From: Treponema sp.
GTDB lineage: Bacteria; Spirochaetota; Spirochaetia; Treponematales; Breznakiellaceae
Direction: 5' to 3'
DNA: 40,447 nucleotides
Assembly: GCA_031254315.1 (NCBI GenBank)
Contig: JAIRUQ010000074.1
Location: 1 to 40,447 of the forward strand
The position numbers and the translations under genes were made by a program. The notes beneath the pieces are model-generated. The model did no database searches. It was not told the DNA's origin and saw only the letters and a list, made by a program, of their open reading frames with translations. Positions 24,059-29,071 of the stretch are shown piece by piece (position 1 is the stretch's first letter; the number at the start of each line of letters is the position of its first letter).

Positions 24059-24295
24059 CTAAATTTCCAGTTGCACAAGATGACCGTGTTTTTTTTCTAT
24101 TTTATAGAGGTCATAGACATAGCCGCCGCTTTCACGGTAAAGACCGGTTTCAACATCGCAAAGCCGAGCAAAGACTTGAGAATTATAAAAGGCTTTCATG
24201 GCATCACTTGCGGAAAAACTTTCATTCTCCATAATGCAGGTTATCACTGAGGAAGTAACATAGTCCATCATTACGATAATTTTTGGGTTAACCAC
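24059..24295 (-). CDS. Small third protein of a DUF3990 module
   Basis: A 78-residue helical protein that I do not recognise by name; the pattern SSVITCIMENESFSASDAMK followed by AFYNSQVFARLCDVETG recalls DUF3791-type helical domains (inference). GTG at 24295 is chosen because GGAG lies six bases in front and the start overlaps the DUF3990 stop by eight bases (GTGGTTAA), the usual sign of coupled translation. It is the last gene of a three-gene minus-strand set. It may act as an antitoxin or accessory factor for the DUF3990 protein. Confidence 0.6.
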   Translation of the reverse strand: MVNPKIIVMMDYVTSSVITCIMENESFSASDAMKAFYNSQVFARLCDVETGLYRESGGYVYDLYKIEKKHGHLVQLEI

Positions 24296-24800
24296 GATGT
24301 ACTCCGGTTTTTTGCAGACAGGCAACTGCGCTTTCTGAGTGAAAAGATACCTGCTCGCTTAATTCGCGGAATGTCAGCTCTTTTGTCAACGCTTCAACTG
24401 ACAGAATCCCCGCCAGATATACATTCATCAAAGCGGTAATATCATCGTTTGCCACAGGACCGGTTACTATATCGTATTTGCCATCAACATTACATTCAAT
24501 GCTGGCAATGTCCCGAAAACTTGAATTGCGGTTGTTTATCACAAACCTAGCCCATTCAATATCCGGTTCATTAAACCTTTTTATTTTGAACCGGGCATCT
24601 TTCAATATAGTATCATCAAAGAAAAATTCTGTTATATAAGGTGTTCCCTCTTCGTATATTCTTGTCGTCCGTTTTGCCATTGTCCATGCCTGTTCTTTTA
24701 GAGTGGTTGTATAAAAACCTTTTTCAAAATCCTTGAAAGGTCTGCATCGAGTAAGGTCTATTTCTTCTATTTCTATGTTTGAACCGTGATAAAGAATCAC
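24288..24800 (-). CDS. DUF3990 protein, putative ADP-ribosyltransferase-like toxin
   Basis: A 170-residue protein with DUF3990 hallmarks: LYHGSNIEIEEIDLTRCRPF, DFEKGFYTTTLKEQAWTMAK, YDIVTGPVANDDITALMNVY and a final EQVSFHSESAVACLQ. DUF3990 belongs to the ADP-ribosyltransferase-like superfamily; H5 and Y30 are the probable equivalents of the H and Y in the H-Y-x NAD pocket (inference). GTG 24800 follows GGGAGG by eight bases. It lies between a DUF3791 gene upstream and a small third gene downstream, an arrangement typical of toxin-antitoxin modules. No target can be inferred. Confidence 0.82.
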   Translation of the reverse strand: MILYHGSNIEIEEIDLTRCRPFKDFEKGFYTTTLKEQAWTMAKRTTRIYEEGTPYITEFFFDDTILKDARFKIKRFNEPDIEWARFVINNRNSSFRDIASIECNVDGKYDIVTGPVANDDITALMNVYLAGILSVEALTKELTFRELSEQVSFHSESAVACLQKTGVHRG

Positions 24801-24840
24801 GAGGGGAACCTCCCTTCACTATGTTCCGGTCGGGTGAGTT

Positions 24841-25059
24841 TCATTCAATGGTTCCCCCGTTATTTTTACAAACTAGGGTTAAATCATCTACGGCATCATT
24901 CAGAGAGAGGGTATGTTCAGCTTCATAACAATCTACAAGAAACTCTATGCCGCTATGATTATAAAGATAATTAAAGGCATCCCGTCTGTCCAAGCCTTTT
25001 CTGTCTGAAAAAGCCGAGACGCACATTGTGAAATAGTGAATTCGACTAGAATCGTTCAT
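24841..25059 (-). CDS. DUF3791 protein, probable antitoxin partner
   Basis: A 72-residue all-helical protein matching the DUF3791 pattern: HYFTMCVSAFSDRKGLDRRD, then AFNYLYNHSGIEFLVDCYEA and EHTLSLNDAVDDL. DUF3791 genes are commonly found next to DUF3990 genes and are presumed to neutralise them (established association; the activity here is inference). The ATG has GGAG about ten bases upstream. It begins the three-gene module on the minus strand, 40 bases before the DUF3990 gene. Confidence 0.78.
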   Translation of the reverse strand: MNDSSRIHYFTMCVSAFSDRKGLDRRDAFNYLYNHSGIEFLVDCYEAEHTLSLNDAVDDLTLVCKNNGGTIE

Positions 25060-25162: not shown

Positions 25163-26245
25163 CTACTTATGCTTTTGCGAAATTTCCTTAAACTGTTCTT
25201 GAATTTGCACAAAAGCATCGACCACAACAGGATCAAATTGAGTCCCTCGCCCCTCAGAGATTATTCTGATCGCTTCTTCGCAAGGCATGGCGGCTTTATA
25301 GACACGCGGGCAAATAAGCGCATCGTATACATCAGCCACTGCCGCCAAGCGTGCCGCCAGGGGAATTGCATCTCCCTTTAATTGCTGAGGATAACCCTTG
25401 CCGTCCCAGCGTTCGTGATGACTGTAACAGATATCTTCGCAATGCTTCAGATAGATAGATGAATTAACATCGCCCAGTTCATGAATAATGTCCCTGCCGC
25501 GTATAGTGTGGGATTTCATTATTTCATATTCATCGGGATCGAGTTTCCCGGGTTTTAGAAGAACTTTATCGGGAATTGCTATTTTCCCGACATCATGGAG
25601 AGCCATGGATCTTATGATTATTTCAGGATCGAGCCTTTTTAATTCTTTGGCATAAACAGAGTTGGTATCTATAAGATAGTTGATTAATGCTTCTACATAC
25701 AATTGGGTTCTTTTAACATGTTCACCGGATTCTTTATCGCGATGTTCAATTATGTTTGCAAGTCCCTGTAGAGCGCTGTTCAGAACATGGGCGAGCATTC
25801 TTGTTGTTTTATCGTAACGGCTCAATTTTAAAACACGCAGAAGTCTGACCATGCGCAAAGCCCGTAAAAAACGAAGGTCAATTGGTATGAAGAACGGAAG
25901 ATAAAACGGTACAATGACCAGAAGGTCAATCAGTCCTGCGGGAGAAAAAACATAACGTAAATATGGCGGCAATTTCAATTTGTTTTTTGATGAAAGATTG
26001 GGAGGTTTGCAAGGGTCAACCCATAATCTCAGCAAATACTCAACGGTAAAAATCACCATCGAAAATAATTCAAAATACGTAAAAATTTTATTGTACCTGT
26101 CGAAGATATCGTCAAATAAACTTAAAATAACCGCAATTATATTGAGCCAAATCAAAACCAACAGAATACTGTTGACAATACGGCTTACCTTATCTTCTTT
26201 TTTTATTTCTTTTTCAAGAATAACGTAAAGACGTTCTCTCAACAT
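25163..26245 (-). CDS. Voltage-sensor domain fused to HD-GYP c-di-GMP phosphodiesterase
   Basis: A 360-residue membrane protein. Residues 22-143 form an S1-S4 voltage sensor: S2 carries F66 and E69 (F-x2-E of the charge-transfer centre) and R73, S3 has D107 in GLIDLLVIVPFYL, and S4 has R125, R128, R131, R134, R137, K140 and R143, one basic residue every third position. After a linker of about 20 residues a complete HD-GYP domain follows: H176, H217-D218 in ALHDVGKIAIPD, H246, H276-H277 and the HHERWDGKGYP motif, and D305 in AVADVYDAL. There is no S5, selectivity filter or S6. The predicted role is a phosphodiesterase for cyclic-di-GMP gated by membrane potential. ATG 26245 is chosen because GGTGGG precedes it. 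Confidence 0.88.
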   Translation of the reverse strand: MLRERLYVILEKEIKKEDKVSRIVNSILLVLIWLNIIAVILSLFDDIFDRYNKIFTYFELFSMVIFTVEYLLRLWVDPCKPPNLSSKNKLKLPPYLRYVFSPAGLIDLLVIVPFYLPFFIPIDLRFLRALRMVRLLRVLKLSRYDKTTRMLAHVLNSALQGLANIIEHRDKESGEHVKRTQLYVEALINYLIDTNSVYAKELKRLDPEIIIRSMALHDVGKIAIPDKVLLKPGKLDPDEYEIMKSHTIRGRDIIHELGDVNSSIYLKHCEDICYSHHERWDGKGYPQQLKGDAIPLAARLAAVADVYDALICPRVYKAAMPCEEAIRIISEGRGTQFDPVVVDAFVQIQEQFKEISQKHK

Positions 26246-26285
26246 TTTTTTCCCACCTTTTTCATCCTGCTCACATTTTTTTAGA

Positions 26286-26308: not shown

Positions 26309-26373
26309 ATATAAAACACTAAAATGTAAGGTCATCACAAAAACAATCAGTCATTTTCCCGTAAAATCAAATG

Positions 26374-26421
26374 ATTTTCAAAATTCTTTCCCTCTCAGGC
26401 AAGCGCCACGCATCTACACGG
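26374..26421. repeat. Copy 1 of a 48-base dispersed repeat
   Basis: Contains CTCAGGCAAGCGCCACGCAT and recurs at 26701-26748 with a few changes, including the flanking ATTTTCAAAATT. The stretch between the HD-GYP leader and comM (26309-26832) holds no gene and is built almost entirely from repeats. Confidence 0.8.
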
Positions 26422-26536
26422 CGCGCTACTCAGGCTAAAGCCTTCGCGCAATTTCCATCTTAGTTACGTTTTTTGTGCGGCGCACTGCTCAGGCTAAAGC
26501 CTTCGCAACCTTTTCATCTTAGTTACATTTATTTAG
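26419..26536. repeat. Two tandem 59-base repeats
   Basis: Units 26419-26477 and 26478-26536 align with no gap. Both contain CTCAGGCTAAAGCCTTCGC (19 identical bases, offset exactly 59), whose centre AGGCTAAAGCCT is itself palindromic, followed by a shared TTTTCATCTTAGTTAC-like segment. Confidence 0.85.
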
Positions 26537-26645
26537 CGCCACGCCGTGTGGAATAATTCATCCACACGACTTTGCCGTGCATACTTTGGCGGACGCCGTG
26601 TTGACTTATTCATCCGCACAGCTTAACGCTGTGCATGCTTGAGCG
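26536..26645. repeat. Two tandem repeats of about 55 bases, each with hairpins
   Basis: The units share ACGCCGTGT, ATTCATCC and GTGCAT in the same order. Unit one holds CGTGTGGA (26545-26552) paired with TCCACACG (26561-26568); unit two holds GCACAGC (26616-26622) paired with GCTGTGC (26628-26634). The matching stems differ in sequence but both fold, suggesting selection for structure. Confidence 0.7.
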
Positions 26646-26677
26646 CCATATATATGAAACTTTTGTTTCATATTCAA
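26645..26677. repeat. Copy 1 of an AT-rich palindromic repeat
   Basis: Carries ATGAAACTTTTGTTTCAT, a perfect 7-bp palindrome with a TTTT loop. It recurs, with two extra bases, at 26747-26781 next to the second copy of the 48-base repeat. Confidence 0.75.
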
Positions 26678-26700
26678 CATAAGGTCTTCCCATCAATTAA

Positions 26701-26781
26701 ATTTTCAAAATTTTTCATCCCTCAGGCAAGCGCCACGCATCTTCACGCCATATATACATGAAACTTTTGTTTCATATTCAA
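26701..26781. repeat. Second copies of the 48-base and palindromic repeats
   Basis: 26701-26748 repeats 26374-26421 and 26747-26781 repeats 26645-26677. The two repeat types are adjacent here but separated in the first copies, indicating that the block has been assembled by duplication and insertion. Confidence 0.75.
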
Positions 26782-28449: not shown

Positions 28450-28490
28450 TTGACAAACGTATTGACAAATATTTATTAGGAGGCTATAAT
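28450..28490 (+). promoter_or_regulatory. Consensus promoter and direct-repeat operator at brnT
   Basis: GTATTGACAAA occurs twice in tandem with a 12-base period. The second TTGACA (28462-28467) has TATAAT (28485-28490) exactly 17 bases on, all 12 bases consensus, yet the -10 overlaps the brnT ATG at 28489. A start from it would fall inside the gene. The first copy (28450-28455) would give a -10 TATTAG with an 18-base spacer. The repeat may be the site where the BrnA antitoxin represses. Confidence 0.6.
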
Positions 28491-28788
28491 GGATACAGAG
28501 TTTAGTTTTGAATGGGATGAAGAAAAAGACCGGGATAACCAAATGAAGCATGGGGTTTCGTTTGAAGAAGCGATGGCGATTTTTTCAGATTCCAGACGGG
28601 TAGAGTTTTTTGACAGTAAACACAGCTTTTTGGAAGAACGGTGGAAAATATTTGGAATGTCCGGTTCAATCGTCTATATGGTTATTTGTACAGAAAGGAA
28701 CGGAAATATCAGAATAATTTCTGCCAGAGAAGCAAGTAAATTTGAAGAGGAGGATTATTTTTATGGGTATAGTTCGAAGAGTAGTTGA
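28489..28788 (+). CDS. brnT: BrnT-family toxin
   Basis: A 99-residue RelE/BrnT-fold ribonuclease toxin. The family pattern FEWDEEKDRDNQMKHGVSFE followed by EAMAIFSDSRRVEFFDS and the C-terminal IRIISAREASKFEEEDYF is clear; BrnT toxins cleave RNA to stop growth (family knowledge). AGGAGG lies in front of the ATG. The brnA start lies inside its last codons, giving the toxin-first order usual for this system. The gene is small, intact and not obviously decayed. Confidence 0.9.
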   Translation: MDTEFSFEWDEEKDRDNQMKHGVSFEEAMAIFSDSRRVEFFDSKHSFLEERWKIFGMSGSIVYMVICTERNGNIRIISAREASKFEEEDYFYGYSSKSS

Positions 28789-29071
28789 TTTTAATAACTT
28801 TCAGCTCTCAGAAGAATCTCTTAAGCGGATGGCGGCACTCAAGGACAGACCAATAGACTTTAGCGACATTCCTGAGTTAACTCCCGAAGAAATAACGGAG
28901 ATCAGGGCGCAAAGAAAGGACGATCAAAAAAAGCAGATGTTCTCTCTGCGCCTGCAAAAAGGAACAATTAAAGGATGGCGAAGAACTATTGGAGAAGGAT
29001 ATACAACCGTCATGGCAAAATTACTGGAAAAAGCGCTAAGACATCCCGACTGGCTCAAAGAATGTCTTTAG
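28763..29071 (+). CDS. brnA: BrnA-family antitoxin
   Basis: A 102-residue partner of BrnT. A central helical ELTPEEITEIRAQRKDDQKK stretch binds the toxin and the C-terminal half, MFSLRLQKGTIKGWRRTIGE with GYTTVMAKLLEKAL, is the ribbon-helix-helix DNA-binding domain. It probably represses the promoter of its own operon. ATG 28763 is chosen because GAGGAGGA precedes it by eight bases; it overlaps the brnT coding region by 26 bases. The reading to 28742 lacks such a site. Confidence 0.88.
   Translation: MGIVRRVVDFNNFQLSEESLKRMAALKDRPIDFSDIPELTPEEITEIRAQRKDDQKKQMFSLRLQKGTIKGWRRTIGEGYTTVMAKLLEKALRHPDWLKECL

Follow-up and report, generated by a model that had tools for sequence, protein, structure and literature searches.

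A pore-less voltage sensor joined to an HD-GYP domain in Treponema: a candidate voltage-controlled c-di-GMP phosphodiesterase

Introduction

Voltage sensors occur, according to the accessible part of a review of them, in ion channels and proton channels, in a sperm exchanger and in voltage-sensing phosphatases (PMC13095418). The protein described here is encoded in a window (the whole stretch of DNA that was analysed) of 40,447 nucleotides from Treponema sp. It resembles Ci-VSP and its relatives in having a pore-less sensor of four predicted helices, a short linker and a presumably cytoplasmic signalling hydrolase. A likeness to the animal voltage-sensing phosphatases had been drawn in a preliminary description of this DNA and is well supported. 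In contrast to Ci-VSP, the fusion protein carries an HD-GYP domain, for which c-di-GMP is the presumed substrate, and not a PTEN-like lipid phosphatase, and its sensor comes from a bacterial K+ channel; it has a separate origin and does not belong to the VSP family. Fusions of a voltage-gated-channel-type module with a cyclic-nucleotide enzyme occur in ciliates and apicomplexans, but those proteins are eukaryotic and make cyclic nucleotides.

The two halves can be compared with other known families. To RpfG-type REC-HD-GYP regulators of the same genus, the HD-GYP half shows an identity of up to 76%, and it nests among them; the sensor takes the place of their receiver, and the fusion protein should be membrane-bound and cannot take a phosphoryl signal. 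Residues 1-155 with their seven S4 charges are like those of prokaryotic six-helix K+ channels (Ion_trans), but S5, filter and S6 are missing from the fusion protein, and its S2-S3 loop is longer than in the aligned channels. With Hv1 it shares a voltage sensor without a separate pore, and it differs from it by a large enzyme domain and by its K+ channel ancestry. It is likely that the gene encodes a c-di-GMP phosphodiesterase controlled by the membrane potential, in which hydrolysis is under voltage control.

In the available portion of a 2022 census of c-di-GMP signalling sensors, the word 'voltage' occurs only for LOV domains and 'membrane potential' is absent (PMC8846402). No report of such a fusion was found among the papers listed in open-access full-text searches on voltage sensors with HD-GYP domains or diguanylate cyclases, as judged by title or start of abstract; subscription papers and preprints lay outside this scope and may hold an earlier report.

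Results and Discussion

Gene and domain organization

The fusion gene occupies 25163-26245 on the minus strand and encodes 360 amino acids followed by a stop, with an ATG at 26245; the plus strand is stop-rich there. The coordinates 25163..26245 given for it earlier proved correct, with an open frame of 360 amino acids on the minus strand. An alternative start, a GTG at 26338, would give a protein of 391 amino acids. A purine-rich stretch just 5' of the ATG is a possible ribosome binding site, consistent with the start at 26245. The features of the gene are as follows.

25163..26245 (-): whole fusion gene (intact frame and Pfam)
26251..26258 (-): purine-rich stretch AGGTGGGA, just 5' of the ATG at 26245, read by eye; candidate ribosome binding site
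25781..26245 (-): residues 1-155, derived from a K+ channel, with the N-terminal helix, S1-S4 and the first part of the S4-S5 linker (blastp 54% to the G154 channel, Ion_trans, sensor tree)
26114..26182 (-): S1, about residues 22-44, limits approximate (hydropathy peak 26-44; Ion_trans from 22)
26018..26092 (-): S2, about residues 52-76 with E59, F66, E69 and R73, limits approximate (hydropathy peak 54-72; invariant residues)
25886..25942 (-): S3, about residues 102-120 with D107, limits approximate (hydropathy peak 104-122; invariant D107)
25808..25882 (-): S4, about residues 122-146, seven basic residues at every third position from 125 to 143 (charges invariant in four fusions)
25166..25783 (-): residues 155-360, HD-GYP domain, from a REC-HD-GYP response regulator (gapless blastp 76% to the G153 REC-HD-GYP; Pfam HD_5 and HD; tree)
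25388..25420 (-): HHERWDGKGYP motif, residues 276-286 (sequence; motif and ligands as in the text available of PMC4159591)

Domain matches in Pfam divided the protein in two. Ion_trans matched residues 22-165 (E 1.2e-14) over profile positions 2-132 of 241 only, which is the sensor half without S5, pore and S6. HD_5 matched residues 163-341 (E 1.1e-30) and HD residues 198-309 (E 9.7e-17). The same half-length Ion_trans match and HD domains were found in three orthologues. Pfam gave no Response_reg match in the fusion protein and, among matches up to E 1, no PTEN-like phosphatase domain. The S5-pore-S6 segment is absent after S4; the sole hydrophobic peak past S3 in the hydropathy profile lies at 294-312, inside the HD-GYP part. 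The HD-GYP part starts 12 residues after R143 by the parental splice and 20 by Pfam, in agreement with the preliminary description, which had it follow the sensor within about 20 residues. The anatomy proposed there, a canonical pore-less sensor with a complete HD-GYP domain, is well supported.

Conservation of the voltage-sensor residues

The residues on which the sensor had been called canonical (F66, E69, D107, R125, R128, R131, R134, R137, K140 and R143) are all present, and E59 and R73 in S2 are found in addition. E59, F66, E69, R73, D107 and the seven S4 charges are invariant in 4/4 full-length fusions. In an alignment of 22 sensors (3 fusions and 19 channels), E59, F66, R73, D107, R128, R131, R134, R137 and R143 show no variation, and conservation is at least 90% at E69, R125 and K140. 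A profile of the 22 sensors searched against PDB chains matched Kv4, KCNQ and Kv2, with a best E of 7e-15. An AlphaFold2 model of the fusion protein, built from an alignment of only 4 rows, had a mean pLDDT of 43.2 and a pTM of 0.24.

The sensor part might serve as a mere membrane anchor, perhaps with a dimer contact, for a constitutive phosphodiesterase to which voltage is irrelevant. Localisation alone can maintain a fusion, and the non-charge positions of S4 vary in the G164 protein. Against this, no change is seen across four species in any of the seven S4 charges or in their partner residues of S2 and S3, while the sensor parts as a whole are 62-66% identical to that of the window protein. 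Charges buried in the membrane should be lost from a part that serves for anchoring only, and this explanation is considered unlikely.

Proton conduction in the manner of Hv1 as the main function of the sensor, with local pH regulating the enzyme, is very unlikely. Hv1 demonstrates that a sensor domain by itself is able to conduct protons, according to the available part of the review (PMC13095418). The sensor of the fusions, in turn, nests among K+ channels (in a tree without an Hv1 sequence). The proton selectivity filter of Hv1 is an Asp in S1. By eye this residue matches Asn35 of the fusion protein, which is invariant in the 4 fusions and the 22 sensors, and residues 26-44 of S1 hold no acidic residue at all. 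This difference from Hv1 argues against proton conduction.

Conservation of the HD-GYP residues

PmGH has a tri-iron site with eight metal ligands, of which seven occur in a Y/F subgroup, according to the portion of the structural paper that was available (PMC4159591). The same portion lists the ligands as E185, H189, H221, D222, H250, H276, H277 and D305, and names D183, K225 and D308 as needed besides them. In an alignment to chain 4mcw, all eight ligands have counterparts in the fusion protein (E172, H176, H217, D218, H246, H276, H277 and D305), while D183, K225 and D308 correspond to D170, K221 and D308. The GYP motif is intact (G284-Y285-P286). The earlier claim that all expected metal ligands and the GYP motif are present is thus borne out against the PmGH list, as far as the paper was available, and against 4mcw. 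The carboxylate is followed by S-G in the fusion protein, as against the T-G called consistent in the accessible text of PMC4159591. The nearest solved chain, 4r8z, is named a cyclic di-GMP phosphodiesterase (E 7.2e-46, improving to 3.5e-61 for a profile made from 25 HD-GYP sequences), and a further PDB relative of the enzyme part, 5z7c, is named a 3'3'-cGAMP phosphodiesterase. From the intact ligands, the enzyme part is predicted to hydrolyse c-di-GMP.

Alternatively, the enzyme part could be catalytically idle or serve another cyclic dinucleotide, so that the protein would be a voltage-dependent binding partner or a messenger sink. HD-GYP proteins such as RpfG also act via protein contacts, as stated in the part of PMC4159591 that was available, and the name of 5z7c points to another possible substrate. 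This explanation is opposed by the presence of counterparts for every PmGH ligand and for D183, K225 and D308 (as listed in the text available), and by the best PDB match, 4r8z. The prospects of this explanation are slim, and hydrolysis of c-di-GMP is retained as the presumed activity.

Orthologues and selection

Although 188 of 195 genomes of the family match the fusion protein at E 1e-20, the matches listed run end to end only in G000 (the genome of the window), G153, G162 and G164. These four belong to one genus (4 of its 39 genomes), and the three orthologues are 69-70% identical to the window protein (68-70% in this search). They come from Treponema sp. MAGs (isolates Emb289P3bin52, Co191P1bin45 and Co191P3bin32) and have the same junction, on contigs of 59, 28.5 and 19.5 kb. 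The check on whether the architecture is absent from related genomes, suggested in the preliminary description, therefore found it in three further genomes of the genus, and the finding survived. The three orthologues were also found when 84,980 species' genomes were scanned with two peptide patterns from the sensor of the fusions, a method which reaches close relatives only. Because of the E-values and the three orthologues, chance is excluded.

Finite dS was obtained in 14 of 24 pair-by-region comparisons, and dN/dS in these was 0.04-0.18; they cover both halves and S4 (three of the six pairs for S4). Synonymous sites were near or at saturation, with 10 of 24 comparisons saturated and every finite dS above 1. 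S4 differed most in the G164 protein, with dN of 0.27-0.37 over 25 codons and the differences lying outside the charges. The fusion appears to be under purifying selection, an estimate which is rough because of the saturation, the overlapping regions and the non-charge S4 divergence of G164. An assembly or binning chimera, or the remnant of a dead gene, has hardly any probability left. The genome of the window is an assembly of 127 contigs with 5.85% contamination, which would favour a chimera; the same junction on the contigs of three other genomes speaks against one, as do intact frames and low dN/dS against a dead gene, and the orthologues in effect refute both. As judged from these comparisons, the fusion is a natural, conserved gene and not an artefact.

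Parents and origin of the fusion

The best similarities to two parent types meet at residue 155. On one side, a six-helix K+ channel of the genus (G154; filter TTIGYGD, Ion_trans positions 2-240 of 241) is 54% identical to the fusion over residues 1-155, including the seven S4 charges (blastp). On the other, the REC-HD-GYP of G153 aligns without gaps to residues 155-360 with 76% identity (blastp). Alignments of the G164 and G000 REC-HD-GYP proteins extend back to residues 133 and 122, crossing S4 and the linker with gaps. Because the splice lies at residue 155, the S4-S5 linker of the channel now leads into the enzyme.

Phylogenetic trees were constructed for both halves, with a midpoint root that serves the drawing alone. 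The four fusions formed one clade (99/95) in the HD-GYP tree, which has 49 rows, and this clade was recovered in 99% of 200 bootstrap trees. It lies inside a 100/100 group of 38 rows, the other 34 being REC-HD-GYP proteins from the genus and the family. All 45 REC rows start with receiver-type sequence by reading, and Response_reg was matched by Pfam in the parent-type REC-HD-GYP of G164, the one tested. A first tree of 43 rows, four of them very distant, did not set the fusions apart as one side: they needed 2 label changes, and a single change sufficed in only 26% of bootstrap trees. A long branch (2.4) separated the distant rows from the others, with the fusions at its foot. The 49 rows are these 43 without the four distant rows and the near-duplicates L019 and L024, plus twelve nearer REC-HD-GYP rows. 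In the sensor tree of 30 rows, the fusions again formed one clade (100/99), with the G154 channel as sister (97/88) and the G182 channel next (88/81). That tree leaves out L049, L050, L054 and L055 (broken or fragmentary frames) and the distant L074. It keeps L068, L070, L071 and L073 (4 of 26 channel rows) despite no match to the filter pattern; at the first three of these places, Pfam matches span the whole Ion_trans profile.

A REC-HD-GYP paralogue is retained in all four fusion genomes, and no second Ion_trans match was found in them at E 0.001. Most likely there was a single fusion event, in or close to one Treponema-type genus, by which the receiver domain was in effect exchanged for a voltage sensor. 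An Hpt protein adjoins the REC-HD-GYP regulator in G164 (Pfam) and in G000 (by eye), so that the input of the regulator is plausibly a phosphorelay; that of the fusion would instead be the voltage sensor.

Proposed mechanism

In voltage-gated K+ channels, the S4-S5 linker transmits the movement of S4 to the pore gate. By sequence and trees, S1-S4 and the start of the linker of such a channel replaced the receiver and its linker in a REC-HD-GYP regulator. The resulting protein would sit in the cytoplasmic membrane with its enzyme inside, and S4 would move with voltage. As the linker stretch now passes directly into the beginning of the enzyme domain, this movement should reach the enzyme, which would hydrolyse c-di-GMP made by the GGDEF proteins of the cell and read by its PilZ proteins. 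G000, G153, G162 and G164 have 7, 14, 11 and 7 GGDEF matches and 4, 5, 5 and 5 PilZ matches, respectively, and because of these domains c-di-GMP signalling is taken to be present in the four fusion genomes. By analogy with Ci-VSP, we lean weakly towards depolarisation as the change that would switch hydrolysis on. We narrowly favour the view that one splice at the S4-S5 linker made a voltage-operated messenger enzyme, a separate prokaryotic invention of the principle of the voltage-sensing phosphatases with both parent types still in the genus.

If voltage does drive the enzyme, the membrane potential would feed directly into a main bacterial lifestyle messenger without a channel, kinase or transcription step, and the question of how bacterial electrical signals turn biochemical could be put to a single testable protein. 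It would also illustrate a route to a voltage-gated enzyme in which a gate-moving linker is rewired to another output, with both parent types available for swaps. The soluble, easily measured product would make the protein a practical tool for studies of sensor-to-enzyme coupling.

Genomic neighbourhood

The neighbours of the fusion gene differ in all four genomes and give no hint of function. In G000 it is flanked by a divergent gene of Mg-chelatase/comM type on one side and a DUF3791/DUF3990 pair on the other, and in G162 it adjoins genes which by eye resemble a branched-chain amino-acid transporter. The gene stands behind one large hybrid histidine kinase in G164 and ahead of two in G153. 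These kinases are possibly a relic of the setting of the regulator, though the fusion has no receiver domain.

24291-25059 (-), window: genes for DUF3791 and DUF3990, a pair immediately downstream of the fusion gene
L060 9671-16552 (+); L059 15031-18030 (-): hybrid histidine kinases adjacent to the fusion gene in G153/G164

Some minor features of the window were also recorded. A promoter-like match (11/12) lies at 25123-25095, where such sites are no commoner than in shuffled sequence. The intergenic region upstream of the fusion gene (26374-26781) contains imperfect direct repeats of 59, 47, 32 and 30 nt; the 30-nt repeat, present in two copies, holds ATGAAACTTTTGTTTCAT, which is almost identical to its reverse complement. 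At 28489-29071 (+), a gene of the BrnT toxin family is overlapped by one whose match to the BrnA antitoxin lies below threshold.

Distribution of the fusion and related proteins

The sensor profile matched 23 of 195 genomes of the family (24 places) and 30 of 291 of the order (31 places). Fusions among these matches were the same four only, the others being channels with a pore or fragments, as judged by reading, filter pattern and Pfam span. When 394 genomes of the class were searched with the full profile, only G153 and G000 matched end to end among the matches listed (G162 and G164 lay outside the sample). Of the partial matches, which include some starting near S4 (query 101-119), the reading covered three, the HD-GYP matches L136-L138; these seemingly reach into the sensor part and are other proteins with hydrophobic N-terminal parts, not sensors. 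The search of the phylum (392 genomes) gave best places only and is not a census. Ion_trans was found at 108 places in 91 of the 291 genomes of the order, 11 non-fusion places having the sensor half only. The reading was confined to these sensor-half-only places; nine of the 11 proteins were read and had no enzyme domain in Pfam, and two were short fragments with stops.

Among mobile elements and viruses, 508 plasmid records and 27 phage records matched, none covering 80% of the query. In viral contigs, all 23 of the 25 sensor loci that were examined continue as pore-type proteins, and the 34 of 71 HD-GYP loci tested with the sensor profile gave no match. No second case of a sensor joined to HD-GYP was thus found in the sampled spirochaete genomes, plasmids, phages and checked viral contigs.

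A second kind of pore-less sensor-like protein, of 336-477 amino acids, was seen in the order (L236, L237, L238, L240 and L242, and more loosely L239, L241, L243 and L244). These proteins have the Ion_trans half followed, by eye, by more membrane segments and a cytoplasmic-looking tail with no convincing Pfam domain; L242 is from the family of the window. Among the channels, L042, L048, L051 and L052 have the filter TTxWYGD or TTIWLGD and L214 has TSVWLGD, in which Trp replaces the first glycine of TTVGYGD.
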